Source: Candidatus Cloacimonetes bacterium HGW-Cloacimonetes-2
Lineage (GTDB): Bacteria > Cloacimonadota > Cloacimonadia > Cloacimonadales > Cloacimonadaceae
DNA: 39,673 nucleotides
Assembly: GCA_002842035.1 (NCBI GenBank)
Contig: PHBP01000001.1
Location: 1-39,673 of the forward strand
Direction: 5' to 3'
The notes beneath the pieces were generated by a model. The model had not been told where the DNA came from. It was given only the letters and a program-made list of their open reading frames with translations, and did not search any database. Position 1 is the stretch's first letter; the number at the start of each line of letters is the position of its first letter. A program made the position numbers and the translations under genes. Positions 1,640 to 26,918 of this stretch are shown here, one piece after another.

Positions 1640-4108
1640 TTACTTTACCAGGACTACCTTCTGAGTGAAGGTCTTGTTTCCTGCGGTCATACGCACGAGG
1701 TAGAGTCCAGTGGAGCAGGCGTTTCCGCTATTGTCCATACCATTCCATTCGATGCGGTGGTTACCGGCAGTGGCAGGTGCGTTATCAAGTACGCGTACCA
1801 ATTGACCACGGTTGTTGTAGATCTTGATAGCAACAGAATTGTTATCGGCAAGGCTGTAGCTGATGAAGGCAATCGGATTGAAGGGATTGGGATAGACGTT
1901 CTTCAGTTCCGTAACAACGGGAATATTGGGAGTGCCGTTGTTTTGTCCGGCAACGTAATCCAGCCTGATCGGACCGTGGAAATCTGTGGTGCCATCGATA
2001 TCCACATTCTGTAGCCAGTAATAATAGGTACCGGTCTCATAGATCTCGCTATCCACATAGACATAGGACTGGGTTGTGGAAGTATTCGTAGCTGTGATCA
2101 GAGGGCTTACAATCTGGGCATTCATTGCATTAGTATCGATGCCACGATAGATGTAGTATCCACTGACGCCTGTCTCAGATTGTGTGACCCACATCAGGCT
2201 GACCAGATTCTGGGCAGAGAGAGTGGCGGTGAAAGAAGAGAGCTCGACAGGAAGGGTGGGGTCTTGATCTCCAAGTACTACCGGCAAATCAAGATCCTTG
2301 TTTGCAGAGATATTCATCACGATCTGCGATCCATTTCCAGCCACTGAATTCCAACTACCATTTTGATAATAAGCACCATAGGGAGCGGTAGAATCAAATG
2401 TGAGGGTCCAAGGACCTGAGCCAATAAGATTGAATACATTCTGATAACTTGGTGTGAAGCTTGCGTTGTTAATCTCTGGTATAGTTTGGTTGGCACTGTC
2501 GTTGGCATTACCACCGGTAACTGTCACCGTTCCGACGGTTGTTCCATTAGGATAATCAAATGCACTTGCAAAATCAGCCAGAAAACGGGGAGAGATCTGG
2601 ATAGCACTATTAAACTGACCAACCAGGCAAATGATATTCTGTGGCGTAGTAGGGATGGTGGTTCCGCTGTAATCAGTATTGGCAAAAGTTCTCAGGGTAA
2701 GGGTTGTAACATCCTGAGTTGCATTGATGTTTTGAGCAGAGGTGGAAAACGTTCCGGTGGAACCAAGTGTAACATTCTCAACCAAAATTAGTTTAGATTG
2801 ATCTGCACTGGTAAGGCTTGCCAGGGTTCTCACAGTGGGAATAACTGGATTATCTGTAGAGGTAGGCATCCCAGGATCAAGAACAGGTATAAACTCAAGC
2901 AGTTGATTGTAAAGAGCAAGTGTTCCGACTATGTTCTCGATTCCATCACCAATATTGTAATTCGTAGTAATCTTTCCCGAAGGATCGTAGATCATTATAG
3001 CGGCCGTGGAATCTTCTATCCACTTCTGATTTCCTGTAGTGTGTTTGAATGTGATGATTGATTCCCCAGTTAAGCGATATACCGTTCCATCTGTAGCTCC
3101 AGCCCTTAAGCTTGCTATATCGGATACATCTGTGATTGTGGGGAAAGTGTAGATTGCAGTGGAAACACTACTATCCGTCATACCAGATTTTGAGGCATAT
3201 GCCCAAATTGTTGTATTACTTGAAACATTCAAAGCAGAACTATATAGGGTCCAAGGACCAGTCTCGCTTGTAAGGCTATAATGAACCGAAGCCCCATCTG
3301 TAGCTGAACTAATCTGAACTGACTGCGCCGTGATATATTCACCAGTTCCAGGGGAAAAAGTAGGAGCGGCTACTGTAGGCGACCCACCCGCATCGGAAGC
3401 AACATCAGCCCACTCGGTTCCGACAATTATGCCATCAAAAGTAGCAAGAGTCCCAGCGTGCCATTGGCGAATACCAACCATTGAAATTGATGTTGCATCA
3501 GCTGCAGTATCATTAGTTATCGCGACATTGGGCGTAGGCTCAGGCTCACCGAGTGGTGGATTAACGAACAAATAGACAGCATCATCTGTAGAAGAGCCAG
3601 TATTAAACGTGTATTTGATCACTATATGGTATGTGGTACCAGTTGAATAATTTGTTGGATCCCAAGTAGCTGCAGCTGTTGTCTTTGCCAATCCAAAATT
3701 TACATTTCCAGAAACCAGCCTAATCCATAATCTGCCGTGAAAGGTAGTTGAGTTCTGCATGAAATGCATGCTGTATCCAGTTGAAGTTGTTGTTATTGAA
3801 GTATTTATCAAGAATGAGTAATAGATACTTCCAGAATTCACTGAAGAGAAACTCTTGTTGACATCCTCTCCATTACCTGATGGAGTTGTAGCATTCCCTA
3901 TACCCGAGCCAGAGTAACCAATATAGGATAAACTGGGGCTAGCAATCTTCATCGGGGTTTGACCGGCACCACTATGAGCCGACCATCCATTGGCAGTATC
4001 TGTGAGATTAGATCCCACAACTCCGGTGAAGTCATCAGTTAATAGTACTGCAGAATAAGCAGTTCCAATCAAGATGACAATCAATATCGACAGAAATAGC
4101 TGTTTCAT
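1640..4108 (-). CDS. secreted multidomain protein with FlgD-like/T9SS-type C-terminal sorting module
   Basis: An 822-residue exported protein. Residues 1-19 are a typical signal peptide (short basic start, hydrophobic core, AYS-A cleavage site). Residues about 25-235 look like a beta-sandwich (lectin/LamG-like) module. Residues about 245-322 resemble the chitobiase/beta-hexosaminidase C-terminal Ig-like domain (APTFSPGTGEY start, VHYSL core). About 327-515 resembles the OB-fold DUF5689-type module (GTVYRLTGE, IEDSTAAIMIYD). A fibronectin-like segment starting VELSSFTA follows near 640. The last 75 residues carry YPNPFNP and end in a typical sorting tail (GLYLVRM, QKVVLVK). It is probably displayed or released at the cell surface. 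Its ligand cannot be read from the sequence. A GGGAGG ribosome site precedes the ATG. Confidence 0.85.
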   Translation of the reverse strand: MKQLFLSILIVILIGTAYSAVLLTDDFTGVVGSNLTDTANGWSAHSGAGQTPMKIASPSLSYIGYSGSGIGNATTPSGNGEDVNKSFSSVNSGSIYYSFLINTSITTTSTGYSMHFMQNSTTFHGRLWIRLVSGNVNFGLAKTTAAATWDPTNYSTGTTYHIVIKYTFNTGSSTDDAVYLFVNPPLGEPEPTPNVAITNDTAADATSISMVGIRQWHAGTLATFDGIIVGTEWADVASDAGGSPTVAAPTFSPGTGEYITAQSVQISSATDGASVHYSLTSETGPWTLYSSALNVSSNTTIWAYASKSGMTDSSVSTAIYTFPTITDVSDIASLRAGATDGTVYRLTGESIITFKHTTGNQKWIEDSTAAIMIYDPSGKITTNYNIGDGIENIVGTLALYNQLLEFIPVLDPGMPTSTDNPVIPTVRTLASLTSADQSKLILVENVTLGSTGTFSTSAQNINATQDVTTLTLRTFANTDYSGTTIPTTPQNIICLVGQFNSAIQISPRFLADFASAFDYPNGTTVGTVTVTGGNANDSANQTIPEINNASFTPSYQNVFNLIGSGPWTLTFDSTAPYGAYYQNGSWNSVAGNGSQIVMNISANKDLDLPVVLGDQDPTLPVELSSFTATLSAQNLVSLMWVTQSETGVSGYYIYRGIDTNAMNAQIVSPLITATNTSTTQSYVYVDSEIYETGTYYYWLQNVDIDGTTDFHGPIRLDYVAGQNNGTPNIPVVTELKNVYPNPFNPIAFISYSLADNNSVAIKIYNNRGQLVRVLDNAPATAGNHRIEWNGMDNSGNACSTGLYLVRMTAGNKTFTQKVVLVK

Positions 4109-5745: not shown

Positions 5746-7344
5746 TTAAAAGCTTCTCGCTTTTTTCACCAGGATGTTCCATGCCGCCTTGAAGAAATAT
5801 CGGCAGTCTGTAGCGAAGGGTCTTTCCAGTTTGGCCAAGATATAGCGTCGTTCGGATTCGACTATATCCTCAAAGGTCTTGGGCATATCTGCATAGAACG
5901 GCGGTAACAGCCCTGGTTTTACCTTCAGTCGCAGCTCCTGCATATCAGGGGGATAGAGACTGAAATAGTGTTCCGAGAGTGCTCTAACGCCAACAATGGA
6001 GAGCTCCCCCCGGAAGAAATTGAGGAATTGGGGTAGCTCGTCAATCCAAAGCTTTCTCAAGATCTTGCCCCAGGAAGTTACGCGGAAGTCGTCCCGGAAT
6101 TTGCCGCCTTCCTGAAGTGCATTCGTCTGATATACGTAATCCTGGAGGTATTCACTGTAGGGGTGCATAGTGCGGAATTTCTTTACATAGATGATTTTCC
6201 CACCCTGTCCCTTACGCTTAAGCCTGATGAATGGTCCATAAGTAGGATTGGCATCGGTACGTGGCTCTTTAGTCTTCTTTAAGATGAAAACTGTTTGTCC
6301 ATTGATTTCTCGTTTGTGAATCAGCTCAAAGCCACAAAAGTAGAAACGACCAAGCATCTCAGTTTCAGAGAGAGCTCTATTGCGTCCTTTGGTGAGAGCA
6401 AAATACCAGCCTTGGAGTACGGGAAGCTTGGGCATTACCCGTCGGATTAAGAAGTCAAAGAAATATAGGAAAGCACCACCGATTTTTGTGTAATGGTGGT
6501 AAAACATATGCTTGCGCTGAGTAATCGTCTGTCCGCAGCAGATGAAAACTCCACCTTGGAGTAGCATTTCGTTTACCCGGATTAGGTAGTAGTTTATGCG
6601 GCGAAGGTCGTTGACGCGGTGCAAGTTTATAAAGAGCTGATGGCTATCTTCTGGTTCATTTTGGATATTGAAGTAGGTTTCGGAATTGAGTATCAGAGTC
6701 TGGTTTTTACTAAAGCGGGTTAGCTCAAGATAGTCATTGATAAACTCAAACCAGAGGGGAACTTCCGCAAGATATCTCTGCCATAGAGGCATTAGAATAG
6801 AGTCTTGATCCAAAGCCTGAGAAAAGGGAGGGATATAAGCAGCATTTGATATCGCAGGTATTTCGTAAGCCTCTTGAAGAAAGAACTTTGGGCTTTGGGA
6901 ATCCTCTAGAGCCTCAGATCTGGTTACCAGCTTTGTGCTGGCATAGTCCTTGTTTTCTTTGTGAAATCTGAAGGCATAAAAAAAGCCCAGGAACAGAAAG
7001 AGTTCCAGGGCAAAACTGGTAAGTATGGTTCCAAATACGATAAAACGCGAGTAATAGAACTTTCCAAAGATGTACATCAGCCCAAGTATGGCGGCAATCG
7101 CAACAGAATTACATGCAAAAATGCGTTTGATATAGCCAATACCTGATGAGACGGTTTTTATGGAGTACTTTGATCCCCAGACCGATGTAAACAGCCAGAT
7201 CAGTGTAAATGGGACAAAACTGCGCCAATAGGTCTGGATAATGCGCAAAGTCCCGGGCTTGATCTTGGCAGCCAGCAGAAATGCGAATGTGATGATTGCC
7301 AGATCAAGGATGAAGAGGGAGTATTTGGAGAGTTTGTATTTCAC
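5746..7344 (-). CDS. polyprenyl-phosphate sugar-1-phosphate transferase (initiating), divergent long form
   Basis: This 532-residue membrane protein probably starts the repeat unit by moving a sugar-1-phosphate onto undecaprenyl phosphate. About four N-terminal membrane segments lie within residues 8-125. Residues about 180-360 resemble a degenerate methyltransferase-like region (a nonpolar stretch near 290-300, then a segment ending FYFCGFEL). The Bac_transf catalytic part occupies 370-530: KKFRTM (388-393), WIDELPQFLNFFRGELSIVGVR (two parts, 433-454) and KPGLLPP (477-482). The usual membrane hairpin just before the catalytic domain is replaced by the middle region, and the acidic pair normally expected after KFRTM is reduced to one Glu (398). 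The start is GTG at 7344 with TAGGG before it. Substrate cannot be told. Confidence 0.85.
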   Translation of the reverse strand: MKYKLSKYSLFILDLAIITFAFLLAAKIKPGTLRIIQTYWRSFVPFTLIWLFTSVWGSKYSIKTVSSGIGYIKRIFACNSVAIAAILGLMYIFGKFYYSRFIVFGTILTSFALELFLFLGFFYAFRFHKENKDYASTKLVTRSEALEDSQSPKFFLQEAYEIPAISNAAYIPPFSQALDQDSILMPLWQRYLAEVPLWFEFINDYLELTRFSKNQTLILNSETYFNIQNEPEDSHQLFINLHRVNDLRRINYYLIRVNEMLLQGGVFICCGQTITQRKHMFYHHYTKIGGAFLYFFDFLIRRVMPKLPVLQGWYFALTKGRNRALSETEMLGRFYFCGFELIHKREINGQTVFILKKTKEPRTDANPTYGPFIRLKRKGQGGKIIYVKKFRTMHPYSEYLQDYVYQTNALQEGGKFRDDFRVTSWGKILRKLWIDELPQFLNFFRGELSIVGVRALSEHYFSLYPPDMQELRLKVKPGLLPPFYADMPKTFEDIVESERRYILAKLERPFATDCRYFFKAAWNILVKKARSF

Positions 7345-7437: not shown

Positions 7438-8205
7438 TCATGGGTTTTGTCTTTGTACCAATAATCTCTTGAATAGGTTCTTTATGCTCTGCCCTATGAG
7501 TTCAATGACCCAGGGTACTAAATCATCGTTCCACCGCTGAGGATGGGTTGTGATCATCATTTGATCTGGTGTCTTGCTGTTCATAATCATATCTATTAGG
7601 CTATCAGTGTTACTCAGTTCTACCTGAAAAGGACCTTTAACTTTATCCCTAATACTAGCCCCACTGTAGTTCCATTTCCGCCCCGTATCAGTTACATAAA
7701 AGACTTTCTCATTGTTCAAATCAAAATATGGCTCACCAATTATGTGATAACTCCTGTAATCGTAATGTTTCCAGAGGTCTTTATTATCGTACTTGGAAAG
7801 TGGACTACCATGCATACAGATTGTGTTTATCGGGGCTAGCTTTCTTAACATACAAAGATTCTGTTCAAAACTCACAATAGCACTGTCTGGATTACCTTTT
7901 GCGCGATCCATATCCTCGTAATGATATCCAATTTCGTGCCCCATATTCTTAATTTCCTGTAGTTTATCATTATGTAAAGAACTTGGCACTATACGGAAAT
8001 AATACGTAGCTCTTATACCTCTTTGATGCTCCAATAAAGCAAAAATCTGTGAATTCCCGGGATTTCTATCTACATCATGTCGAAGTATAACTACTTTATC
8101 GAGTGGGCTCTGCAAATAGGCTTCGAATGTTTGAAACGCATAACCTGCAGAAATTAATGCATCCATTAGTCTCTGGTACTTGACAACAGTGAAATCTCTA
8201 TTCAT
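7438..8205 (-). CDS. NodB-fold polysaccharide deacetylase-like protein (HDVD type, copy 1)
   Basis: A 255-residue protein of the carbohydrate esterase 4-like fold. Motif 1 is RHDVD (42-46), with Asp44/Asp46 in the catalytic-base and metal positions. Motif 2 is GHEIGYHYED (89-98): His95 is present but the second His of the canonical HxxxH is missing. It has a family-specific MHGSPLS (131-137) and a motif-5 THPQRWND starting at 220. It shares all of these with the protein at 13351-14130, so the two are paralogs. A glycan-modifying role (deacetylation or a related hydrolysis) is inferred from fold and operon; the altered metal site means activity is not certain. No signal peptide, so it is probably cytoplasmic and acts on a nucleotide- or lipid-linked sugar. 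Confidence 0.78.
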   Translation of the reverse strand: MNRDFTVVKYQRLMDALISAGYAFQTFEAYLQSPLDKVVILRHDVDRNPGNSQIFALLEHQRGIRATYYFRIVPSSLHNDKLQEIKNMGHEIGYHYEDMDRAKGNPDSAIVSFEQNLCMLRKLAPINTICMHGSPLSKYDNKDLWKHYDYRSYHIIGEPYFDLNNEKVFYVTDTGRKWNYSGASIRDKVKGPFQVELSNTDSLIDMIMNSKTPDQMMITTHPQRWNDDLVPWVIELIGQSIKNLFKRLLVQRQNP

Positions 8206-8244
8206 AAACTTCGTCCATTATTGCTTGAAGGTCAGAGTACCGTA

Positions 8245-9711
8245 TCAGATTTGTATTCCTGCATTGGCAACTCTTGAAGTTCTATAAGGTATGTAGTTCA
8301 CAACAGAAGTAACACCAGCTCCTCCAACTAATCCCAAATCATGGTAATCAATAATAATGTTATCAATCTGGAGAGATTCCGTAGTACCCCACCAGTTATT
8401 TTTGAAATCTAAAGGATATGGTCCCTCGTTATAGTAATACAAAGCTCTAGATTCCACTGCATACTGAGTGCAATCAATATTGTTATAATTGACCTTAGTC
8501 CAGCCTTCAGTAATTGTATTGTACCAGTTATTTGTGTGATATGTCTTAATACCAACTCGACATTCAATATCATTATATGAGATGGTTAGGTTGGAATAAC
8601 CAGAATTCTCAATACCAACATCGTTGTTTCGGATTGTATTGTACTCAAATAATGAGCTAGATTCCCAAAGATTTACAAATCCTCTATCGTTATCAAGGAA
8701 CGCAGAATTGCTAATGTGTGCATTAGTTACCAACTCACACTTCATCGCTATGTAGTTATCAAGAAACAAATTGCTATTAGCGTTATATCCTTGAACACTA
8801 TTCACGAAGCAAGACGCTGCATTTATGTTCTTGTTACCATAGAAAAAATTGTTCGACACATTCAAACTCGTTAATGACCTGGCAACAAAACCATATAGAC
8901 ACCTAATGAAAGATGAATTTTCGATCGAGAAACCATCAACCGTAACCTGTAGTGCGTTTCTCAAGTGAGAAAATGACATATGGTTTAGTTCGGTAGCCCC
9001 AGAATATATATAAAAACCATCGCCCAGATTAGCCTCGGAAATGCTTCCTGTGTAACAACCGGAGTATGAGGTTATGTAGGCACGCATGTTGTTTCCCGGG
9101 GAAGATATCTGCCCATATGAACTTATTCTTACGTTTTTATCTATAAGGAGCCTACTATCAGAGCTGAATTCTAGTCTTGAGTTTTCACCTAAAACCATGT
9201 CCTCCTTAACAACATAATTTCTCCCTTGTTCTAAGATCAGTTCACTATCCAGATAAGCCTCTAGCTCAATCTCTGGATAAAGTAATAAGCTATTACTTGC
9301 AACCTCAAGTTCAGGCATATTCAGTTCGATATCATAGATATAATTAAAACCCCAGCCAACCATATAATATGCTACAATATATCTATCGTAAGGCAACTTA
9401 GAAAAGCTGAATCTACCATTTTGATCGGTAAAAACAGTTTGTAGAGGACTATAATTCCTATGATCAAACAAGACTTTGTCATCAATGGGAAAGGCCAGAT
9501 CAGGATATTGCTGACGAATCTCTAATACTTGCTGAGAAGCTAAATCAGCTCGAAAAATTGATACGGTAATCCCAGCATGTACTTCTTGCCCATCAAGTCT
9601 TACAATTCCTGACACAGTGCCTGAACTAGACTGTGATGAATTATTGCATCCGGTTGATAGCACTATAACGGATAACAACAGCATACTGAGATAGAAGTAC
9701 TTACTAATCAT
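8245..9711 (-). CDS. lipoprotein with carboxypeptidase-like Ig domain and right-handed beta-helix
   Basis: A 488-residue predicted lipoprotein. The N-terminal hydrophobic segment ends at Cys22 in VLSTGC (a slightly non-canonical lipobox). Residues about 32-150 form a carboxypeptidase regulatory-like Ig module (GTVSGIVRLDGQ start, DQNGRFSFSKLPYDRYIVAYY). From about 165 to 460 the sequence is a run of short Asn-rich turns (NNFFYGN, SNLFLDN, SNSAFLDND-type, YNTIRNN) typical of parallel beta-helix proteins such as polysaccharide lyases or glycan-binding surface proteins. No specific catalytic site is evident. Its place between glycan-modifying genes suggests it acts on, or is anchored with, the finished polysaccharide. 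A lipoprotein in the middle of a biosynthesis operon is unusual. Confidence 0.8.
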   Translation of the reverse strand: MISKYFYLSMLLLSVIVLSTGCNNSSQSSSGTVSGIVRLDGQEVHAGITVSIFRADLASQQVLEIRQQYPDLAFPIDDKVLFDHRNYSPLQTVFTDQNGRFSFSKLPYDRYIVAYYMVGWGFNYIYDIELNMPELEVASNSLLLYPEIELEAYLDSELILEQGRNYVVKEDMVLGENSRLEFSSDSRLLIDKNVRISSYGQISSPGNNMRAYITSYSGCYTGSISEANLGDGFYIYSGATELNHMSFSHLRNALQVTVDGFSIENSSFIRCLYGFVARSLTSLNVSNNFFYGNKNINAASCFVNSVQGYNANSNLFLDNYIAMKCELVTNAHISNSAFLDNDRGFVNLWESSSLFEYNTIRNNDVGIENSGYSNLTISYNDIECRVGIKTYHTNNWYNTITEGWTKVNYNNIDCTQYAVESRALYYYNEGPYPLDFKNNWWGTTESLQIDNIIIDYHDLGLVGGAGVTSVVNYIPYRTSRVANAGIQI

Positions 9712-9725
9712 AAAAAACTCCTAGA

Positions 9726-10451
9726 TTAAATTGTACCCGAATCAACAAAGTGGTTAGCTCCAGTAATAGTTTCACTAGTATCATTTAGTAAGAACTCTAC
9801 CATCCTAGCTACTGCATCTATTGATGTTGGTTTCTTTAATGATGTTCTCTTGTAAATCCTTTCCTTCTGTTCAAAGGATAAGGTACTGCTCATGGCGGTA
9901 TCCATAAACCCAGCAACTATAGTATTTGAACGAATCCCACGTTCTCCCCACTCCCTTGCAGTATTCTTTGAGAAAGCTTCTATAGCGCCTTTAGTTGAGG
10001 CATACATAGCGAGCCCTTTATATCCAGTATGGACACTAATCGAAGAAATATGGACTATCGATCCCTGTGTATTATGAAGTAACATGTTACGAATTACATT
10101 CTTTGTTATCATCATAGGTGCGAATACATTGACCTGATACATATTTACTAACAGGTCATAATGCATATTGCTTATAATATCATCATAAGCCATTGCCGCA
10201 TTATTCACAAAACCATGTAAAGGCACATCGTATCCTACTAGATCATGAAAGATTGTTGTCATAGAATTGGGAACATCCATCAAGTCTGCAATAATCAACT
10301 GAAATCTATCTTTGTACTTTGTTTCAAGATCAGATATGGCTTCCACATTTCTCCTTGCAACGCCGAATACTCGATAACCATTATCAAGTAAATGAGCAGT
10401 TGTTCTAAGGCCTAAACCTTGAGTAACTCCGGTTACGAGTATGTTTCTCAT
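9726..10451 (-). CDS. SDR-family oxidoreductase (FabG-like), copy 1
   Basis: A 241-residue short-chain dehydrogenase/reductase. The NAD(P) loop TGVTQGLG is at 7-14, NNAA at 83-86, the catalytic region has SSIS near 136-139 and Tyr150-xxx-Lys154 (YASTK), and the C-terminus GANHFVDSGTI follows the FabG pattern. FabG-like enzymes reduce 3-oxoacyl-ACP to 3-hydroxyacyl-ACP. Its stop-to-start spacing to the adenylating enzyme upstream is 1 nt, and that gene overlaps an ACP gene, so an acyl-ACP substrate is more likely here than a sugar. A sugar dehydrogenase role remains possible. Confidence 0.85.
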   Translation of the reverse strand: MRNILVTGVTQGLGLRTTAHLLDNGYRVFGVARRNVEAISDLETKYKDRFQLIIADLMDVPNSMTTIFHDLVGYDVPLHGFVNNAAMAYDDIISNMHYDLLVNMYQVNVFAPMMITKNVIRNMLLHNTQGSIVHISSISVHTGYKGLAMYASTKGAIEAFSKNTAREWGERGIRSNTIVAGFMDTAMSSTLSFEQKERIYKRTSLKKPTSIDAVARMVEFLLNDTSETITGANHFVDSGTI

Positions 10452-10452
10452 C

Positions 10453-11664
10453 CTAAATCCTCTTTACTTTACCGCTACGAGTCAAATCAATATTGTCGAC
10501 AAAACTAATGACCCTTGGAATCTTATAGTCTTGCAGATTCTCTTTCAAGAACGCTCTGAGTTCAGCCTCTGAACACGAATTCATGGTCACGACTTCTGCC
10601 ACTAGAATAGTTCCAACAACCGGGTTTGTTTTACCCCATACCCTAGCCTTCGAGATGGAAGGATGTAAGCATAAAACTTGTTCAATCTCAAGTGGGTTAG
10701 CCTTGAGCCCACCCACGTTGACAAGCTCATTATCTCTACCAATAAACACAAATTCTTGAACCTCAGGATCTACTACTTCTACCAAGTCCCCTGTATCATA
10801 CCATCCCTCTGTTGCATCATCGACACCCAATAACGACATATGAATGAATAATCGGTTATCAACTATTTTACATTGATCGGGACAGGTAATCACAAACTTG
10901 TCATTGTTGGATTCAAGTACAGATCCTGCCTCAGTAGAGGCATAAATGTTCCTAAGCTTTGCGTTTGGAAAGGCTTTTTCTAAGTGTCCCGATAGATGTG
11001 GGTCAAAGCTCTCCCCACCAGAAGTGATTCTTCGTACAGAAGGATACTCCGAGCACAAAGGTAATAGCATTCTATAAAAGGTAGGAGTAGCAGATATGTT
11101 GGTGATATTATAACCATTAATCCGCTTCATAACGTCATCCGATGAAAGCTTGAAAACGTCTATCATTCCATTACCATTGAGGATTGATTGGAAAAAGACC
11201 TGAATACCCGCTATATGAGTCGGATTATATGCATAAGCCCATACGTCGTTTGCATGTTTCTCAGATATCCTTGCCAAACGAGTAAGATTATCTAGCCTGT
11301 GAGTTATTTTTTTAGGTATTCCAGTAGTACCAGAAGTATACAAACTGACCCGCCAATCTCTTGCTTGCTTGATTAATGATATCAATTCTGCCTTATTCTC
11401 AATCTGTTTCTTGCTTACATTCTTATACTTGTTAACCTTATCCAAGTCTATCGCGAGTTTTTTTAACTCTAATTCGCTAAAATCTGAATCTAACAAGACT
11501 ATGTCTATTCCGTGAACAATGCTACTCAATATGGTTTTGAAAATGTCGTAGGTCTTCAATAATTTACAATAATGTGGGACTTGAGTGCAAGAATTTAGAT
11601 CATGGATAAGTCGAGAATAAGTAAATTCTTCCCCGTCTTTAGCAACAAAAAAAAGACTATCCAT
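10453..11664 (-). CDS. AMP-binding acyl-activating enzyme (acyl-CoA/acyl-ACP ligase-like)
   Basis: A 403-residue member of the ANL adenylating superfamily. The ATP loop YTSGTTGIPK is at 109-118, STEAG at 243-247, YDTGD at 289-293, the hinge after GRDNE, NVGGLKANPLEIE at 316-328, and the catalytic Lys399 in SGKVKRI. It is shorter than usual (about 500 or more) because the N-terminal subdomain before the ATP loop is reduced, as in some OSB-CoA-ligase-like enzymes. It overlaps the ACP gene by 8 nt, which suggests it loads an acyl group onto that ACP, or activates an acyl acid for the glycan. The acyl substrate cannot be predicted. Confidence 0.88.
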   Translation of the reverse strand: MDSLFFVAKDGEEFTYSRLIHDLNSCTQVPHYCKLLKTYDIFKTILSSIVHGIDIVLLDSDFSELELKKLAIDLDKVNKYKNVSKKQIENKAELISLIKQARDWRVSLYTSGTTGIPKKITHRLDNLTRLARISEKHANDVWAYAYNPTHIAGIQVFFQSILNGNGMIDVFKLSSDDVMKRINGYNITNISATPTFYRMLLPLCSEYPSVRRITSGGESFDPHLSGHLEKAFPNAKLRNIYASTEAGSVLESNNDKFVITCPDQCKIVDNRLFIHMSLLGVDDATEGWYDTGDLVEVVDPEVQEFVFIGRDNELVNVGGLKANPLEIEQVLCLHPSISKARVWGKTNPVVGTILVAEVVTMNSCSEAELRAFLKENLQDYKIPRVISFVDNIDLTRSGKVKRI

Positions 11665-11893
11665 TTGGCCTTTTGCCCAGTTTAATCAGAATCTCGCCAA
11701 TGCTGTTCACGAAGCCATCTTCGAAAATATCGATTCCTGATTCGTTCTCAATTCTTACAGTAAGCTCTGCTAAATCCAGTGAATCTAACTCAAGATCTCT
11801 TCGAAGATCATCACTAGGTTGGATACTTTCAAGCCTGGTTAGCCCTTTGTTCTGCCTCACAGTATTAATCATTACTAAAAGCCTATCGATCAT
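11657..11893 (-). CDS. acyl carrier protein (operon copy)
   Basis: A 78-residue ACP with the phosphopantetheine site LELDSLDLAEL, Ser38 being the attachment residue, and the acidic helix II around it. Its ATG overlaps the stop of the upstream deacetylase gene by one nt (TAATG), and its 3' end overlaps the adenylating enzyme by 8 nt, so the three are translationally coupled. It is not next to the usual housekeeping fatty-acid genes, which points to a dedicated carrier for an acyl group used in this polysaccharide. Confidence 0.93.
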   Translation of the reverse strand: MIDRLLVMINTVRQNKGLTRLESIQPSDDLRRDLELDSLDLAELTVRIENESGIDIFEDGFVNSIGEILIKLGKRPNG

Positions 11894-12825
11894 TAGTTCT
11901 CCTTAGTTTTTTTCCAATACTCAAAGTAGTCCTTGCATGTTATGAATTCGAAGCCATTCGATTGGAAATATAGTAGATGTTGTTCATACAACCTGATTGC
12001 TGATTCACCCAAGTTTTTTGTTTTCATATACCCTCTGAGTTGTTCTGCTATTATATATACAAAAGGATTGTTTGAGCGTCTCGCTCTACTATCGTTGTCC
12101 TTTTCCACCATACATTCATTAGGATGGATCAAAAAGTTGATAGGATTACCAGTAAGCTTAGACTCCCAAGCTAATAATGAGCGTAACAATTGGAGACTAT
12201 AAGGAATAATCCTCATTGCAGTGCCGATATAAGGTATTATTAGAGAAGAAATTGGGATCTCAAAGACCGGATAATCTCCTCTTTTAGATAAATCGTTCTT
12301 CTGAACATATCCAGGATAACGAGCAGCCCAGAGTCTGTTCAATTTCTTTATAGCACCGAAACTGAAAAACATGTCTGCTCTTTGGGGTGATATTGAGCTA
12401 TCAATAATATACCCAGAATCATGTAAAGCTATAGGAGTAAATCTATTAACCCTTAGGGCAGGTGCACGAAACGATACAACTGGATTTCCTGATATATCCT
12501 CCAACAGCTTCCTTGATTTGCTCAACTGGTTTGTTTGCTCTTGTAGATTCAGCTGGTCTAGAGCAAATCTATCATCATGACAATAACTATGTGAACCCAA
12601 TTCATGCCCTCTGTCAACTATCATCCTGATAATCACAGGAAAAGCTAATGCAATGTCACCTGTTACAAAAAACGTGCTTCTGACCCCAATGCGATCATAT
12701 AGGTCCAATAGTCTTGGCAATCCTTCATTTACAATATACTCACCAGTAAGTCTACGCTGTTTATTGAACCTAATAGAAGTAAGTTCTACATCATTCGTAG
12801 CAAGAAAAAACGTCTTCATCTGCAT
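11893..12825 (-). CDS. NodB-type polysaccharide deacetylase
   Basis: A 310-residue carbohydrate esterase 4-like protein with an intact metal-site pattern: TNDVE near residues 10-14 (Asp12), GHELGSHSYCHDD around 93-105 with HxxxH, FRAP as motif 3 and LIHPNE as motif 5. Such enzymes remove N-acetyl groups from amino sugars or O-acetyl groups from glycans. No signal peptide is seen, so a cytoplasmic lipid-linked or nucleotide-linked substrate is likely. It overlaps the acyltransferase gene upstream by 35 nt. A deacetylase next to an acyltransferase and an ACP suggests exchange of an acetyl for another acyl group on an amino sugar. Confidence 0.85.
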   Translation of the reverse strand: MQMKTFFLATNDVELTSIRFNKQRRLTGEYIVNEGLPRLLDLYDRIGVRSTFFVTGDIALAFPVIIRMIVDRGHELGSHSYCHDDRFALDQLNLQEQTNQLSKSRKLLEDISGNPVVSFRAPALRVNRFTPIALHDSGYIIDSSISPQRADMFFSFGAIKKLNRLWAARYPGYVQKNDLSKRGDYPVFEIPISSLIIPYIGTAMRIIPYSLQLLRSLLAWESKLTGNPINFLIHPNECMVEKDNDSRARRSNNPFVYIIAEQLRGYMKTKNLGESAIRLYEQHLLYFQSNGFEFITCKDYFEYWKKTKEN

Positions 12826-13354
12826 TGAACTGCTTGGTCACAGAGGCTGGATTACCAGCGACAATCGAATGAGCAGGGATAACACCTTGAGCTGTTGATC
12901 CCGCACTCACAACAGCGCATTCTCCCACGTCTGTTCCAGGAAGAATCGTAGAGGAAACTCCAATCCAAGCTCCCCGGCGGATTACTACCGGCGCTAAATA
13001 GGATAGCATACGACCCTTGAAATGCATATATGGATTTGAATGTGCGATTACATAGTTATTTCCAGCCAAAGCTGCATAATCCTCTATTTGGATGTATTCT
13101 GGATGTGCGTTGTCTAACACACAATGCATTCCCAGCATCACATTTCTGCCGATCCGGACTCCCCGCATTCTGTGTAACTGAACTCGCCAACTATTTATTG
13201 GGCAATTGTAGGCCAAGCTCTGAAATAAGTAATTGCGAAATCGTTGTATCAAGAAACAAAACCGCCCAGTTTCTCGTCTTTTACTAGATTTTTGGAGTTG
13301 TTCTGCGAAGCTCTTGTTGGGCACATAATACGGGATAATTCTTGCCTTAATCAT
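12791..13354 (-). CDS. hexapeptide-repeat (left-handed beta-helix) acyltransferase, copy 1
   Basis: A 187-residue acyltransferase of the WbbJ/maltose-acetyltransferase type. Hexapeptide turns run from about residue 67 (VRIGRNVMLGMHCVLD) to 178, the active-site His lies in VIAHSNP, and the conserved end is SIVAGNPASV. It transfers an acetyl or larger acyl group to a hydroxyl or amine of a sugar. The first 65 residues are basic and may associate with the membrane. Its ATG overlaps the stop of the upstream gene by 4 nt (ATGA). It is a paralog of the protein at 19813-20334; both have LD-x-A-x-P followed by IEDY. Confidence 0.88.
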   Translation of the reverse strand: MIKARIIPYYVPNKSFAEQLQKSSKRRETGRFCFLIQRFRNYLFQSLAYNCPINSWRVQLHRMRGVRIGRNVMLGMHCVLDNAHPEYIQIEDYAALAGNNYVIAHSNPYMHFKGRMLSYLAPVVIRRGAWIGVSSTILPGTDVGECAVVSAGSTAQGVIPAHSIVAGNPASVTKQFNADEDVFSCYE

Positions 13355-14130
13355 ATACTGTCCCTTTTGCGCCGATACTGCTTCAAGGCCTTTTTTGCCA
13401 AGTACTTAGGGACGGTTAACACATAATAGCGTATCATCCACTTAAGCCAAATATCATTCCATCTAGCTGGATGGATATTCAACATAAATTGCTCTGGAAG
13501 CTTCCCATCGGAAATGAGGTCAATCAAATCATCTGAGTAGTGAACGTTAAACTTGTAGGGTGACACCACATGGTCTCTAACGCTATATTTTTCGCCATCC
13601 CAGCAATTGCCAGTATCTGTTAAGTATGCCATAACATTAAAATCAAGATCAAGATACGGCTCGGCAATAATATCGTGTTCGCGGTAATCGTACCGATTCC
13701 ATAGCGCTTTGCTATCCCAAGGCGATAATGGCCTGCCATGCATAGCAATAGTTTGTACTGGATAATAACCCCTAAAGAATTCCAGATTACGTTTAAACCT
13801 CTTAATAGCTGCTTCATAATCGCCGTCGGTTGCTGCAAGATCTTCATAGTGATACCCAATTTCATGGCCCAAAGACACTATGCCCTTTATCACTGAGTCA
13901 TTAACGCTGAGTGGTGATCTGCGGAAATAATAGCTTGTATGAATACCCAAGTCCGACTCAATCAATGCCATCTTCAGGGCATTACTAGGCCAAGAGTCTA
14001 CATCATGACGAATCAGGCAGACACGGGAAGCAGGATTTTCAAAGAACTCGGCTACAGTTTGCGTTTCATAGCCGTTTCTAAGCAAGCTTAGACACAATTC
14101 TCTGTACATCCGCATAGTAAAATCACGCAT
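13351..14130 (-). CDS. NodB-fold polysaccharide deacetylase-like protein (HDVD type, copy 2)
   Basis: A 259-residue paralog of the protein at 7438-8205. The shared marks are RHDVDSWPSNAL near 41, SYYFRRSPLS, GHEIGYHYEDLA, AMHGRPLSPWD, YDYREHDIIAEPYLDL, LTDTG and NIHPARWND. As in copy 1 the HxxxH of motif 2 keeps only the first His, while an extra conserved His lies in AMHGRP. It sits between galE and the hexapeptide acyltransferase, overlapping the latter by 4 nt. Probable role is deacylation or hydrolysis of a sugar intermediate in the cytoplasm; the reaction is not established for this subgroup. Confidence 0.78.
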   Translation of the reverse strand: MRDFTMRMYRELCLSLLRNGYETQTVAEFFENPASRVCLIRHDVDSWPSNALKMALIESDLGIHTSYYFRRSPLSVNDSVIKGIVSLGHEIGYHYEDLAATDGDYEAAIKRFKRNLEFFRGYYPVQTIAMHGRPLSPWDSKALWNRYDYREHDIIAEPYLDLDFNVMAYLTDTGNCWDGEKYSVRDHVVSPYKFNVHYSDDLIDLISDGKLPEQFMLNIHPARWNDIWLKWMIRYYVLTVPKYLAKKALKQYRRKRDSI

Positions 14131-14133
14131 AGA

Positions 14134-15150
14134 TTAAGCTTTATGATTAGTAATCTGCTTCTGAAATCGCCATCCATCCCTGCACATATCTTCCAGCCCA
14201 AGGTTAGCATTCCAGCGCAAGATCCGATTCGCTTTATCTGGATTTGAGTAACACTCTGCCACATCACCAGCACGACGGGAACTAATAACATGAGGAACAG
14301 TCAGATCGTTTACTCTTTCAAATGCTTTGATAACATCCATGACAGAATACCCTTTTCCTGTTCCCAGGTTGAAGATATGCACACCGGGATTCTCTTCCAC
14401 AAAGGGAAGGGTTTTGATATGCCCCAAAGCCAGATCCACTACATGTATATAGTCCCTCACTCCGGTACCATCTTGCGTAGGATAGTCATTGCCATATACA
14501 AAGAGTTTGTCCCTTTTTCCTATGGCTACTTGTGTTATGATCGGGAATAGGTTATTTGGAATACCCAAGGGGTCTTCACCGATTAATCCTGAAACATGAG
14601 CACCAACCGGATTAAAGTATCTCAGCAGTGCTATATGCCAATTCTGATCGGAACTACATAAATCCCTGCATATATTTTCAACAGCCAGCTTCGTCATTCC
14701 ATAAGGGTTAACAGGACCGGTAGGGCTAGCTTCTGTTAGGGGCATAATGTTGTTTCCGCCATAGACTGTTGCAGAACTGCTGAAAATGAGATTATGCACA
14801 TGAAACTGCTCCATCACTTGCATTAGAATGATAGACCCTACGACATTGTTATGGTAATACTTCAATGGTTCTGCGACAGATTCCGCCACAGCTTTCAATC
14901 CGGCAAAATGTATCACTGTGTGAATCTCGTGGGAAGCAAAAACGTTTGTCAATGCTTTTCTATCGGTTACATCGCAATGATAAAAAATTGGCTTTCTTCC
15001 TGTGATCATCTCTATCTTCTCAAGGACAGAGGGGTTGGAATTGGATAGGTTATCTACTATGATAACGTTATCTCCAATCTCCAACAACTCAACCACTGTA
15101 TGGCTGCCAATGAAGCCGGTACCGCCGGTTACCAAAATGTTTCTATCCAT
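14134..15150 (-). CDS. galE: UDP-glucose 4-epimerase
   Basis: This 338-residue enzyme interconverts UDP-glucose and UDP-galactose (or the GlcNAc/GalNAc pair) using tightly bound NAD. It has GGTGFIG at 9-15, VDNLSNS, HFAGLKAVAESV, SSSATVYG with the catalytic Ser near 124-126, Tyr150-xxx-Lys154 (YGMTK), the GalE-specific LRYFNPVGAHVSG-type segment, and YPTQDGTGVRDYIHVVDLA. Length and order match the family throughout. It supplies a galacto-configured precursor for the glycan. It is 3 nt upstream of the HDVD-type gene and 23 nt after the SDR gene. Confidence 0.96.
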   Translation of the reverse strand: MDRNILVTGGTGFIGSHTVVELLEIGDNVIIVDNLSNSNPSVLEKIEMITGRKPIFYHCDVTDRKALTNVFASHEIHTVIHFAGLKAVAESVAEPLKYYHNNVVGSIILMQVMEQFHVHNLIFSSSATVYGGNNIMPLTEASPTGPVNPYGMTKLAVENICRDLCSSDQNWHIALLRYFNPVGAHVSGLIGEDPLGIPNNLFPIITQVAIGKRDKLFVYGNDYPTQDGTGVRDYIHVVDLALGHIKTLPFVEENPGVHIFNLGTGKGYSVMDVIKAFERVNDLTVPHVISSRRAGDVAECYSNPDKANRILRWNANLGLEDMCRDGWRFQKQITNHKA

Positions 15151-15173
15151 AAACTACCTCATTAATCACAACA

Positions 15174-15884
15174 TCAAACTAATCCGCCATTAATATTGAT
15201 CTCCGCACCTGTTATATATGTAGCTGAGACCAAGTATTGAACAGCCTTTAAAATATCCATGGGATCTCCCAGGCTACCCTGTGGAATCTTCTTCACAATG
15301 TCAGACAGATAATCTTTCGGTACTTCAGCTATCATACCGATATCAAAATATCCAAGATTTATAGTATTTATGGTTATCCCGTATTTTGCATTCTCTACAG
15401 CAACGGCCTTAGCTAAACCCCATAATCCAGCCTTTGATGCAGCATATGCAGAAGTACCGTAAACACCAATTCGTGGCACAACGGACGACAAATTGATGAT
15501 CCTGCCAAAACCAATATTCCTCATATAGGGAATCACTGCGCGAATAACGTTGTATACTCCAAAAAGATTCACATCCAGGACGTCGTGCCATAATATAGGA
15601 TCAGAATTCTGGATAGCAGCATTATAGTTTACGCCGGCGCAGTTAATCACCACGATGTTATCCGCAGAGTCTCTAGTGATGGATTCAACCCATTGGGTTG
15701 CTTGCTCGGGATTACGAATATCAACTCGAGACAGAAATAATTGAGACTTTACTTCATGATTAAGTGAATTCTGCTCAGGTGCAGTGGAAAAGTATGTTCC
15801 AAACACAGTGTTACCACTTGAGACCAGATTATCGGCCAATAACTTGCCTATGCCACGAGTTGCTCCGGTAATCAAATACAGCAT
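15174..15884 (-). CDS. SDR-family oxidoreductase (FabG-like), copy 2
   Basis: A 236-residue short-chain dehydrogenase with TGATRGIG at 6-13, NCAG at 81-84, the LSSVV segment near 132, Tyr147-xxx-Lys151 (YAASK) and the C-terminal TGAEININGGLV typical of FabG. The ATG at 15884 is preferred over a GTG nine codons upstream because the nucleotide-binding strand starts right after it; the gene then lies 4 nt downstream of the KAS III gene. Pairing with KAS III strongly suggests a 3-oxoacyl-ACP reductase for the condensation product. Confidence 0.88.
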   Translation of the reverse strand: MLYLITGATRGIGKLLADNLVSSGNTVFGTYFSTAPEQNSLNHEVKSQLFLSRVDIRNPEQATQWVESITRDSADNIVVINCAGVNYNAAIQNSDPILWHDVLDVNLFGVYNVIRAVIPYMRNIGFGRIINLSSVVPRIGVYGTSAYAASKAGLWGLAKAVAVENAKYGITINTINLGYFDIGMIAEVPKDYLSDIVKKIPQGSLGDPMDILKAVQYLVSATYITGAEININGGLV

Positions 15885-15888
15885 TTTC

Positions 15889-16878
15889 TTACCACTTAAT
15901 GATTGATGCACCCCAAGTCCAGCCTGAGCCTACAGCAGCGAATAATACAACATCCCCGCGTTTTAGCTGTCCCGAACGATTTACTTCATCCAACAAAATC
16001 GGTATCGTACCACCAGAAGTATTCGCGTATTTATCCATGTTAGTCTTCACCTTATCGAAAGGCAAACCGATTATACTGGCGGTATCTTTTAGTATCTGAA
16101 TACTGGGTTGATGAGGGATCATATAATCCACATCTTCTATTCTGAGTCCGGTATCAGCTAAAACTTGGTTTATAGCCATTGGCAATACTTTTATTGCTGT
16201 TTCGTAAACTGCTCGCCCAACCATCTGGAAATATCTCTTCCCAGAAGCTACATTTTCTTGGCTCATGGGGAATTCCGAGCCTCCTCCGGGAATAGTAAAG
16301 TTCCACTTGCCACGGCCATCGGAATACAATCTAAATGCCAAAAAGCCTTCGCCATCATCAGCATGAGTCAAGACTGCTGCGCCTGCACCATCTCCAAAAA
16401 ACACGCAGTCGCGCCTGCTCCAGTCGATGATCTTTGAGAACGTGTCAGATCCTATCACTAAAGCTGTGTTGTAGATTCCGGTAGCGATAAACTGGGCAGC
16501 AGTGGACACTGAAAACAGAAATCCAGAACAAACAGCGGCCAAATCAAAAGCTACTGAATTGTATGCGCCAATCTTGTCCTGAACTATACAAGCAGTTGAA
16601 GGAGCTAATCTATCAGGAGTAGCTGTAGCAACTATGATCAAGTCTATGTCTTCAGGTTTCAATCCAGCGTTTTCAAGCGCTCTAAGAGCGGCCTGAGTGG
16701 CTAGATCGCTTGTTGGTTGATCTGGTCCAGCCACGCGTCTTTCTCGTATACCTAGATTTTGATAGACCCATTCATCTGTTGTAGAGCACAACGTTTCCAG
16801 GTGCTTGTTAGTATATACGGTATCTGGTGTGTATGAGCCCGTTCCTATGATTCTTACATTTCTGACTAGCTGTTTCAT
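15889..16878 (-). CDS. 3-oxoacyl-ACP synthase III (FabH-like)
   Basis: A 329-residue KAS III enzyme that condenses an acyl-CoA (or acyl starter) with malonyl-ACP. The catalytic triad is visible: Cys117 in AAVCSGFLF, His256 in IPHQPS, and Asn286 in YANTSGGT. Length and N-terminus (IIGTGSYTPDTVYTN) are normal. AGGAG lies 5 nt before the ATG. It is embedded in a polysaccharide operon with an SDR reductase immediately downstream and an ACP 4 kb further on, and no fabD, fabF, dehydratase or enoyl reductase is in the window. This points to a short acyl product left at the 3-hydroxy stage rather than membrane fatty acid synthesis. Confidence 0.93.
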   Translation of the reverse strand: MKQLVRNVRIIGTGSYTPDTVYTNKHLETLCSTTDEWVYQNLGIRERRVAGPDQPTSDLATQAALRALENAGLKPEDIDLIIVATATPDRLAPSTACIVQDKIGAYNSVAFDLAAVCSGFLFSVSTAAQFIATGIYNTALVIGSDTFSKIIDWSRRDCVFFGDGAGAAVLTHADDGEGFLAFRLYSDGRGKWNFTIPGGGSEFPMSQENVASGKRYFQMVGRAVYETAIKVLPMAINQVLADTGLRIEDVDYMIPHQPSIQILKDTASIIGLPFDKVKTNMDKYANTSGGTIPILLDEVNRSGQLKRGDVVLFAAVGSGWTWGASIIKW

Positions 16879-23188: not shown

Positions 23189-24013
23189 TTACAGGTTCCC
23201 GGTTAGTATCTCTGCATACTGACCGCAGGTTTTTATTGTAATGTCTTTTCTGGTTGACAGCAACTTGATAAAGCCAACAAAGCCTTCCCATATATTACGA
23301 TCGGATACCAGTAGCCACGGATGAAAACCTATCCCGGCGATTGTTCCCGCTTGAAAGACATCTAAGGCTTTACTAAAATATCTGGTCACATCTTCAGGTT
23401 CCAACTCTGTATGAAAAAGATCCCAATCATCTATGACGGAACTGAAACGAACCATGGAATCCAACCTATTCTTTGGGGGGAATCGGAAGGTGATTGGGCT
23501 ATCCATAAGACCGGTTTTTAGGAGATCATACTTATAGCCATAATTGGCATAACAAGAAAGCGCCCTTACATCCCATTGATCTCTTGGAGAGTGAAACCCC
23601 TTAATATTCAGGTCTTTAAACTTGGGAGAATCGAAAGCTGAAAAATCTTTCTTTATTTGGGTCAGAGTGGCTTCACGAAGTATTAGATGGGAATAAGTAT
23701 GTGAACCTATCTCATTACCATAGGACTGGATATTGCGGACTGAATCAGGATACTTCTCCATAACCTGACCCACAATAAACCAAGTGGATACAAATTGGTA
23801 CCTGGCTAATAGCTTTACAATTTCCTCCACATCCGTATCAGTAATATCTGTTTTATGTCCACTGTACTCACGCTCATAATCAAAATATAAAAATAAATAC
23901 TTGCTATTCCCATCAAAGGCACTACCTAAGTCGATGGCCCGGAACAATCTTTTTTCCAATAGCTTGTAGCGGGACCGCACAAGTTTATTCCTAACTCGTC
24001 TTAGCAAAGCCAT
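23189..24013 (-). CDS. NodB-type polysaccharide deacetylase-like protein
   Basis: A 274-residue NodB-fold protein. Motif 1 is YFDYERE, motif 2 is NEIGSHTYSHL with an intact HxxxH, motif 3 appears as GFHSPRDQWD and motif 5 as GIGFHPW. These preserve a plausible Asp-His-His metal site. It is the fourth NodB-fold protein in this operon and is not a close copy of the HDVD pair. There is no signal peptide, only a basic N-terminus. Its first 23 nt overlap the FemAB-like gene, so the two are translationally coupled. Confidence 0.82.
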   Translation of the reverse strand: MALLRRVRNKLVRSRYKLLEKRLFRAIDLGSAFDGNSKYLFLYFDYEREYSGHKTDITDTDVEEIVKLLARYQFVSTWFIVGQVMEKYPDSVRNIQSYGNEIGSHTYSHLILREATLTQIKKDFSAFDSPKFKDLNIKGFHSPRDQWDVRALSCYANYGYKYDLLKTGLMDSPITFRFPPKNRLDSMVRFSSVIDDWDLFHTELEPEDVTRYFSKALDVFQAGTIAGIGFHPWLLVSDRNIWEGFVGFIKLLSTRKDITIKTCGQYAEILTGNL

Positions 24014-25091: not shown

Positions 25092-25690
25092 AAAGCCTTG
25101 ATCTCACGATAAACACCCAAACCGGTTATCACCAAGTACTTGTTAGTCTGATAATACTCGTATCCATTCTCTGTAACAGACTTAATCCCTTTAGGGTTAT
25201 CAGCCGCTATCTGGATAAAAATCTCTTTGGCTCCATCACGAACGCAGCGATTAATCCTCTCATGCTCCATTCTTGTGTGTAGCCCCCTGTGTCTGTACTC
25301 TGGAACACAATATCCATCTTTTACGAATCGCTGGTTATCACCAAGTACGAGATTAATGTCTTCCAGATAGGATACAGTCTTCTGAATGATCCACGCCACA
25401 TAGGCAATTCTATCCGTATTTACATCAAAGACTGCTAATCCCAACCAGCGTGGATCTGAAAGGCGCGGTAAGCCATTACGCTTATAGTACCCTTTTGAAC
25501 GTCCGGAATATGCCTGCTCCAGATACGTAGCGTCATTTATATCCAATCCGCGGATATAGAAGCAATCATCAATTCTGGTCAGCAAATCAATCTCATGGTC
25601 AATTCTCAATCTGTAGGTGTTCAAGATAACAATTTGGGGTCTAAGGGCATATATTTGCCTCAATAGTCTACTTATTGGCCGGAATTTCAT
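25058..25690 (-). CDS. GNAT-family N-acetyltransferase
   Basis: A 210-residue protein whose middle shows the acetyl-CoA loop CVPEYRHRGLHTRME (motif A, R-x-x-G-x pattern), followed by IFIQIAADNPKGIKSVTENGYE, the usual beta-bulge and alpha-4 region of GNAT enzymes. The ATG at 25690 is chosen because GGAGG lies 6 nt upstream; the frame also has a TTG two codons earlier. The gene overlaps the polymerase and FemAB-like genes. It probably acylates an amino sugar. No closer function can be given. Confidence 0.75.
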   Translation of the reverse strand: MKFRPISRLLRQIYALRPQIVILNTYRLRIDHEIDLLTRIDDCFYIRGLDINDATYLEQAYSGRSKGYYKRNGLPRLSDPRWLGLAVFDVNTDRIAYVAWIIQKTVSYLEDINLVLGDNQRFVKDGYCVPEYRHRGLHTRMEHERINRCVRDGAKEIFIQIAADNPKGIKSVTENGYEYYQTNKYLVITGLGVYREIKAFCRSKNLFGRR

Positions 25691-26918
25691 TCTCAACCTC
25701 CGAGAATTGATATAGAAACCTTGGTTCAGCGTGATGTTTTTTCATATAATAATAATGAAATACCATCATCAGAATTAGGCCGGGTTCAATGAAATTGGTT
25801 TTATCCGTTGTGAAATTTGAAAAGATAAAGCAAGACATAGCCACTACAGATCCCCAATAATGAGTTTTCCTCGCTCCAATCAACAATTGTCGGGTCATCA
25901 GAATGATAAAAAAGTAATATGTCAGTGCAGCGAACATTCCATAGAAGTACCATATTCCAAGAAAACCGTTGTGGATACGGGTCAGCCTACCGTAGAAACG
26001 GTACAAACCTTCAGTAATTATTCCCCCAGTCCCAAAGTAAAGATTCTGAGGTATCTGGTCTGCTGCCGCATAAAATGCGTCGATTCTAGTCATATAGGTC
26101 TCTGATTCGACTCTGTTGGTAACAAAGTACTCAAAATCAAAGTCCAGAGCGTCAATTACGACATTAAACGCAATAATCATAACAAAAATCATTACTACGG
26201 CGCTCAGACGATTTTTAGAGGGGAGTGTCGTCACGATCCAAAACAGAGTAACCATAATGTAGTTAACCATCGCAAACCGAGCTTGAGAGAGAAATATTGT
26301 AACTCCTGTCGCCAATGCGACGTAGAGAGTGTATTTTCTCTTTGAGTCCTTTTCGAATAACAATATGGCATACATAGCCGGTAACCCAATCCCCAGATAT
26401 TGGGAAAAGATGCCATCGCCCCATGTGAACATAGACGTAATCCTGCGCTCATATCCTTCTGTCTGCAGATCAATCCCGACGTACTTTCCTGTATTTACCA
26501 TAAAATCCGGAACGAAGTATTGGATTATGCTGACGATTGCGGCCAGGAAAATTGTATACCTCATAGCTATTATCATACGCCGGATAAACTTCTGATCAAA
26601 ATCATATGAGCTAATCAGAAAGAGAAGCAAGAAGGATGCCACATAGGTCAAGGTGACGGTTAGATACTTATTGGCAGCAAAAGGAGTTTTATTATAGACA
26701 AACACAGAGAAGAATACGAAAAAACTACTCAAGAATAAAAACACCAGATAACCTGGCAGCTTTGTTATTCTTCTGCTGCTCATGGTAAGAATAAATGAAA
26801 AAACCGTAACCAACAGCAATAAATAGAAAGGAGGCTCTTCTATCAGAGTTATAGTAAAATATCCTACCAACTGGTAAAAGATCAATATCCATATCGGTAG
26901 TTTTTGCAGAGTATTCAT
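25668..26918 (-). CDS. wzy: O-antigen polymerase/ligase-like membrane protein
   Basis: A 416-residue integral membrane protein with about ten to twelve predicted membrane helices from residue 8 to 385. The long periplasmic loop lies near residues 265-310 and holds YFGTGGIITEGLYRFYGRLTRIHNGFLGIWYFYG; the RIHNGFLGIWY stretch is the common His-containing motif of Wzy/WaaL proteins. As the only such protein in an operon with Wzx and an initiating transferase, it is most likely the repeat-unit polymerase, but a ligase role cannot be excluded. Its start overlaps the flippase stop by 4 nt. Confidence 0.83.
   Translation of the reverse strand: MNTLQKLPIWILIFYQLVGYFTITLIEEPPFYLLLLVTVFSFILTMSSRRITKLPGYLVFLFLSSFFVFFSVFVYNKTPFAANKYLTVTLTYVASFLLLFLISSYDFDQKFIRRMIIAMRYTIFLAAIVSIIQYFVPDFMVNTGKYVGIDLQTEGYERRITSMFTWGDGIFSQYLGIGLPAMYAILLFEKDSKRKYTLYVALATGVTIFLSQARFAMVNYIMVTLFWIVTTLPSKNRLSAVVMIFVMIIAFNVVIDALDFDFEYFVTNRVESETYMTRIDAFYAAADQIPQNLYFGTGGIITEGLYRFYGRLTRIHNGFLGIWYFYGMFAALTYYFFIILMTRQLLIGARKTHYWGSVVAMSCFIFSNFTTDKTNFIEPGLILMMVFHYYYMKKHHAEPRFLYQFSEVENEIPANK

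Follow-up and report, generated by a model that had tools for sequence, protein, structure and literature searches.

The antigenicity of a bacterial surface can depend on non-acetyl N-acyl groups carried by its sugars, as was shown for the R-group genes of Flavobacterium psychrophilum (PMC6519341), and the gene source of the acid in such groups is often unidentified. For the glyceroyl-bearing sugar Pse5Am7Gra of Tannerella forsythia, for instance, no modifying enzyme has been identified (PMC6388019). The viosamine island of Pseudomonas syringae (vioA, vioS, vioR, acp, vioB) produces N-(3-hydroxybutyryl)viosamine, established with mutants and mass spectrometry and lost in vioA, vioB and vioR mutants (PMC3927599). 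In the O-polysaccharide of F. psychrophilum, to which the R-group genes wfpC-wfpG belong, a 3,5-dihydroxyhexanoyl amide was determined by nuclear magnetic resonance (PMC6519341). Genes for an acyl carrier protein (ACP), a 3-oxoacyl-ACP reductase and an AMP-dependent synthetase accompany LuxE and LuxC in flagellin glycosylation islands of Aeromonas (PMC7874193) and Enterobacteriaceae (PMC4875605), where no function has been assigned to them, and the sfmABCDE operon of Shewanella includes a 3-oxoacyl-ACP reductase with no reported ligase or ACP gene (PMC3765264). A set of β-ketoacyl-ACP synthase III (KAS III), ketoreductase and ACP in a glycan locus is already known from P. syringae and F. psychrophilum. 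Here we analyse a window of 39,673 nucleotides (bases 1-39673 of contig C2, 531,556 bases) from the 2.5 Mb genome of Candidatus Cloacimonetes bacterium HGW-Cloacimonetes-2 (phylum Cloacimonadota), in which a polysaccharide operon combines a KAS III and a reductase (KAS III-2 and FabG2) with a cassette made up of an ACP, a short adenylating enzyme (ANL) and a FabG-like short-chain dehydrogenase/reductase (SDR1). As a unit this cassette seems undescribed; a limited, partial literature search found no specific description of it, or of an ACP-ANL-SDR set in capsule loci.

The ACP-ANL-SDR1 cassette

We consider it probable, though by no means assured, that the region holds two independent acyl-supply units, that is, alternative sources of acyl-ACP serving one surface-glycan assembly line. 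All genes named in the first-pass annotation of this DNA were found where it had placed them, on the minus strand, and neighbouring genes in this part of the operon overlap or are separated by short gaps. The cassette consists of the ACP (11657-11893; PF00550), with Ser38 in LDSLD, the ANL (10453-11664; PF00501 and PF13193), which overlaps the ACP gene by 8 bases, and SDR1 (9726-10451; PF13561/PF00106), a predicted ketoreductase with Ser-Tyr-Lys intact. Catalytic motifs are intact in all enzymes checked; in the ANL these are motifs A3 to A10 (A3, A5, A7, A8 and A10, including the A10 lysine), and its AlphaFold model, with a predicted local distance difference test score (pLDDT) of 92, matches ANL ligases. 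In its A4 region N147 and H150 are conserved, and the NPTH segment holds no aspartate. Since the A4-region aspartate of ANL enzymes binds the alpha-amino group of an amino acid substrate, loading of an amino acid by this enzyme was rejected. A plasmid search with the ANL returned only matches below 60% identity, the best of those listed reaching at most 36%, and no annotated close relative.

Within the phylum, only four further genomes have a close ortholog of the ANL (50-57% identity). These four sequences were aligned with the ANL of the window, and scanning species genomes with the alignment yielded 80 loci, with an ortholog of SDR1 (at least 45% identity) immediately downstream of the ANL in 79 and an ACP of one recognisable family (signature LR.D.GfdSlDLAELTVRIE) immediately upstream in 77; in two of the three loci missing this ACP, the ANL lies at most 250 bases from the contig end. 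In the window itself the orthologous genes stand side by side in the order ACP, ANL, SDR1. The divergence of the three proteins is correlated (r 0.73-0.88 between their identities, where shuffled data reached at most 0.17), and SDR1 is the most conserved of them, with a median pairwise identity of 60% compared to 44% for the ANL. The cassette of a Chitinophaga metagenome-assembled genome (L089) contains two consecutive ANL-like frames, from an ANL that is either split or duplicated. At 7880-12240 of locus L047 (genome G043) and at 219-2568 of locus L048 (genome G059) lies another kind of module, which combines SDR genes and small open reading frames (ORFs) with a longer ANL (445-447 amino acids); in the former, one small ORF is ACP-like, and a second SDR and a divergent KAS III are also present.

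The 80 loci fall nominally into 11 phyla (48 Bacteroidota, 14 Bacillota, 5 Verrucomicrobiota and others), but the rare labels are unsafe because many loci are single contigs of metagenome bins, and one 'Chloroflexi' contig (L049), whose SDR1 is 66% identical to that of the window, may be mis-binned. Recurrent genes in the immediate neighbourhood, counted with no control for background frequency, encode acyltransferases (hexapeptide, GNAT, AAC(3)-type and Acyl_transf_3) and amino-sugar proteins (DegT, FdtA, NeuB and cytidylyltransferase). In the Bacteroides fragilis locus, which opens with a NusG-type gene, probably UpxY, genes for a sugar dehydratase and then an aminotransferase come before the cassette and one for a hexapeptide transferase comes after it. 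The Lysinibacillus cassette has a GNAT gene on one side and, on the other, nonulosonic-acid operon genes for a cytidylyltransferase and NeuB. The cassette is also found in Prevotella polysaccharide loci.

The archaeon Halorubrum halodurans carries what looks like a bacterial acyl-ACP unit (L128, 9626-14401), in which AcpS and GNAT genes adjoin the cassette and a deacetylase follows. The cassette contig carries the only PP-binding and AcpS matches of this genome, the searches run gave no match to malonyl transacylase (FabD), and the only KAS III match falls below the family cut-off. With an AcpS of its own beside the cassette, no FabD match and no real KAS III, the ACP would be charged by the ANL and not by fatty acid synthesis, and it is this case that argues most strongly for the ligase as the source of the ACP-bound acid.

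Segregation of the two units

KAS III-2 (15889-16878; PF08541/PF08545, with TIGR00747 and NF006829 above their cut-offs) is a FabH-like condensing enzyme with an intact Cys-His-Asn triad (VCSG, PHQ, NTSG). The adjoining FabG2 (15174-15911) is a 3-oxoacyl reductase whose top models, PRK12824 and, second, acetoacetyl-CoA reductase, both stay below cut-off; the latter match is a weak hint at a C4 chain. Among 125 genomes of the phylum, six relatives have orthologs of KAS III-2 with 67-80% identity, compared to about 40% for housekeeping FabH. In a tree of 40 KAS III sequences these six and the window protein form one clade (support 100/100, stem 0.96), which is separate from the clade containing the FabH of the fab cluster on contig C5, and the triad is kept in all seven members. 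The departure from housekeeping FabH that the first-pass annotation had proposed to look for is borne out by this tree. FabG2 is the next gene to KAS III-2 in five of the six relatives, and in the sixth the contig ends there. Five relatives (G003, G029, G041, G043 and G071) have KAS III-2 without the cassette, and no ACP was detected near it in any of them; in the window the ACP goes with the ANL and SDR1, which leaves the KAS III no private ACP. Judged by gene content, KAS III-2 and FabG2 are a second unit without an ACP gene of its own.

The cassette in turn occurs without KAS III-2 in G046, G047 and G048, and both units are present in the window, within one operon, and in G001, within one gene cluster. 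In G043 and G001 the genes for two NodB-type proteins (NodB2, then NodB1) and a hexapeptide transferase are followed by KAS III and FabG2, and G029 has the same order from NodB1 onward, where its contig begins. G046 and G047 have ACP-ANL-SDR1 after NodB2, NodB1 and the hexapeptide transferase. G003 and G041 have KAS III and FabG2 without the hexapeptide transferase or NodB1, and the contig of G071 ends after KAS III. This alternation in one slot, which must be taken with caution since it rests on few loci and no statistical test, would fit two interchangeable acyl sources on a common deacetylase-acyltransferase chassis.

The grouping of deacetylase, acyltransferase and acyl source that the first-pass annotation had pointed out recurs in relatives. 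Its treatment of the KAS III, ACP, ANL and both reductases as one module is not supported, as the cassette normally lacks a KAS III and the KAS III-FabG2 pair is found without the cassette or a nearby ACP. A KAS III lies within ten genes of the cassette in only 8 of the 80 loci, at 24-32% identity and in no case orthologous to that of the window. In three bacterial genomes with the cassette, the one KAS III match in each is best read as the housekeeping one. Because the two units occur separately in relatives, the two reductases mean two units and not necessarily two extension or reduction steps.

Alternatively, all these genes could form a single assembly line, with a starter placed on the ACP by the ANL, a malonyl extension by KAS III-2 and reduction by both reductases to a dihydroxyacyl chain like 3,5-dihydroxyhexanoyl. 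This very group is made by F. psychrophilum, whose genes for it encode a reductase, an ACP and a predicted pair of ketosynthases (PMC6519341), the two units do share an operon in the window and a gene cluster in G001, and in six Bacteroidota loci an SDR and a KAS III, the latter forming a single clade, lie directly upstream of the cassette. The segregation of the units among relatives and the 72 of 80 cassette loci without a KAS III within ten genes, some of them on short contigs, speak against it, and after this comparison we regard a single line as rather unlikely.

Proposed route and further alternatives

For two separate units, the following route can be proposed from what is known of the enzyme families. 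The ANL would adenylate a free carboxylic acid other than an alpha-amino acid and load it onto the phosphopantetheine of Ser38 of its private ACP, and SDR1 would reduce a carbonyl of the ACP-bound acyl group. KAS III-2 would condense an acyl-CoA with malonyl-ACP, FabH-type, on the housekeeping ACP, and FabG2 would reduce the product to a 3-hydroxyacyl-ACP. The short 3-hydroxyacyl group expected by the first-pass annotation is plausible for the KAS III unit only, by analogy with the systems described above (PMC3927599; PMC6519341). The hexapeptide acyltransferase (12791-13354; PF00132) or another transferase of the operon would then pass the group to a sugar amine or hydroxyl. The acceptor amine could be supplied by a NodB-type deacetylase or by an upstream LegB/DegT route, and the data do not choose between them.

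NodB1 (11893-12825; PF01522, TIGR03006 below cut-off), a CE4 polysaccharide deacetylase, is 53-55% identical to its counterparts in cassette loci and 45-48% to those in KAS III loci. The hexapeptide transferase shares 64% identity with the one beside ACP-ANL-SDR1 in G046 and G047, to which loci the transferase and deacetylases beside the window cassette are closest. NodB2 (13351-14130) has no Pfam match; in a Foldseek search with its predicted fold (pLDDT 89) CE4 deacetylases were the only sensible PDB matches, with moderate template modelling (TM) scores, and its Asp/His motifs (HDxD, HEIGYH) are invariant in nine relatives. Matches to pyridoxal phosphate enzymes in the same search were dismissed at TM-scores of about 0.2. 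NodB3 (7438-8205, minus strand), a paralog of NodB2, is closest (62% identity) to the NodB-like genes of the KAS III loci G003 and G041, directly beside KAS III in the former. This gene and a further NodB-like gene at 23189-24013 had been missed by the first-pass annotation, as had a second ACP-like gene at the head of the operon. A GNAT (31183-32181; PF00583), a DegT aminotransferase (32178-33308; PF01041) and a LegB-type 4,6-dehydratase (33450-34568; TIGR04180 above cut-off), all on the minus strand, make up the candidate 4-amino-sugar route. Between NodB2 and FabG2 lies GalE (14134-15150; TIGR01179 above cut-off), a UDP-sugar 4-epimerase.

Several points weigh against this reconstruction. 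The hexapeptide transferase resembles O-acetyltransferase families and hence may not be an N-acyltransferase, and such transferases and deacetylases turn up in many polysaccharide loci, so that finding them next to the units counts for less than the cassette does. SDR1 might act on a sugar instead of the ACP, and the six Bacteroidota loci suggest that the two functions can be joined. Moreover, what the sequences show is gene content, intact motifs, the limits of the two units, their alternation and their separateness from housekeeping fatty acid synthesis; the enzyme activities, the transferase, the acceptor and the identity of both acyl groups are inferred. Our confidence is evenly divided on the wider proposal that ACP-ANL-SDR1 is an undescribed, mobile and self-contained acyl-ACP source for decorating amino sugars of surface glycans, which has spread from polysaccharide loci of gut Bacteroides to nonulosonic-acid operons of Bacillota and a haloarchaeon, and whose place on a shared chassis of deacetylase and acyltransferase a KAS III/FabG unit can take. 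If this is true, a three-gene marker present in B. fragilis and Prevotella polysaccharide loci would predict non-acetyl acyl groups from sequence and make them findable and testable.

The operon further encodes Wzx (26915-28378; PF13440), a Wzy-like protein (25668-26918; PF04932), glycosyltransferases and, at the downstream end of the shared chassis, an initiating phosphoglycosyltransferase (5746-7344; PF02397; 54-71% identity in relatives), the three with coordinates being on the minus strand. At its head, upstream of an MBOAT gene (36165-37313), stands the second ACP-like gene (38275-38526; PF00550), both on the minus strand. The top NCBIfam match of the latter, an ornithine-lipid ACP, is far below cut-off, and a partner ligase was not obvious in the window. 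As these two genes and a possible SGNH-type protein without Pfam match (35191-36183) share the operon with the cassette, the cassette could belong to a Dlt-like O-acylation or D-alanylation route (ligase, carrier protein, MBOAT and SGNH-type protein). We find this very doubtful, given that the ANL lacks the A4 aspartate for an amino acid, that elsewhere MBOAT does not rank with the families most often seen next to cassettes and that the MBOAT ORF looks truncated. The shortfall seems to be at the C-terminus of the MBOAT frame, and upstream of it a small frame (37384-37551, minus strand) resembles, by eye, an MBOAT C-terminus; decay or rearrangement is possible. A 23S rRNA-intervening-sequence-type protein (PF05635; 5329-5682, minus strand) is also encoded within the operon, with similar genes in relatives' loci, and just downstream of the operon lies a gene for a large protein (1640-4108, minus strand) with a Por-type secretion-system C-terminal domain and a FlgD Ig-like domain.

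A search of the whole genome gave two matches to ketoacyl synthase, two KAS III and three PP-binding proteins. One of the ketoacyl-synthase matches is a full FabF-type match beside FabH and an ACP on contig C5, which also carries FabD; a phosphopantetheinyl transferase is on contig C4. The KAS III and ACP of the window are not the only copies in the genome, which agrees with the private role given to them in the first-pass annotation. Also in agreement with it, no Pfam family for KAS I/II, dehydratase, enoyl reductase or malonyl transacylase was matched among the main ORFs scanned in the window, the sole exception being the SDRs, which match the generic PF13561. Although KAS III-2 and FabG2 match the FabH and FabG families, a role of the window genes in membrane lipid or general fatty acid synthesis has next to no likelihood and was rejected, in view of the separate fab cluster on C5, the separate clade of KAS III-2 and the presence of the cassette in a haloarchaeon without FabD match.

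Comparison with known systems

The P. syringae viosamine island and the Pseudomonas aeruginosa PAK glycosylation island resemble the window in having a KAS III, a 3-oxoacyl-ACP reductase, an ACP, an aminotransferase and an acyltransferase in a glycan locus (PMC3927599). In the window the KAS III and reductase are the conserved pair at 15174-16878, and the DegT, hexapeptide and GNAT genes provide the aminotransferase and acyltransferases. Unlike the window, the P. syringae island has no ANL and no deacetylases among its seven genes (PMC3927599). It also decorates a flagellin glycan, whereas the window encodes a Wzx/Wzy polysaccharide. In the window the ACP belongs to the ANL unit, and the KAS III-2 loci of relatives have no nearby ACP. 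The tetronate genes of Vibrio cholerae O1 may follow a similar logic; a search on them gave nothing decisive. The flagellin islands of Aeromonas (PMC7874193) and Enterobacteriaceae (PMC4875605) place the same three enzyme classes as the cassette in a glycan locus, a likeness at the level of enzyme class. They differ in their LuxE acyl-protein synthetase and LuxC acyl-CoA reductase, for which no Pfam family was matched in the window ORFs scanned. The wfpC-wfpG genes of F. psychrophilum, with functions that are themselves predicted, include two ketosynthases, and the available portions of the report mention no ANL (PMC6519341). In common with the window, their Wzx/Wzy locus also holds 4-amino-sugar genes and, as described there, they combine a private ACP, ketosynthases, a ketoreductase and a PglD-like acyltransferase (PMC6519341).

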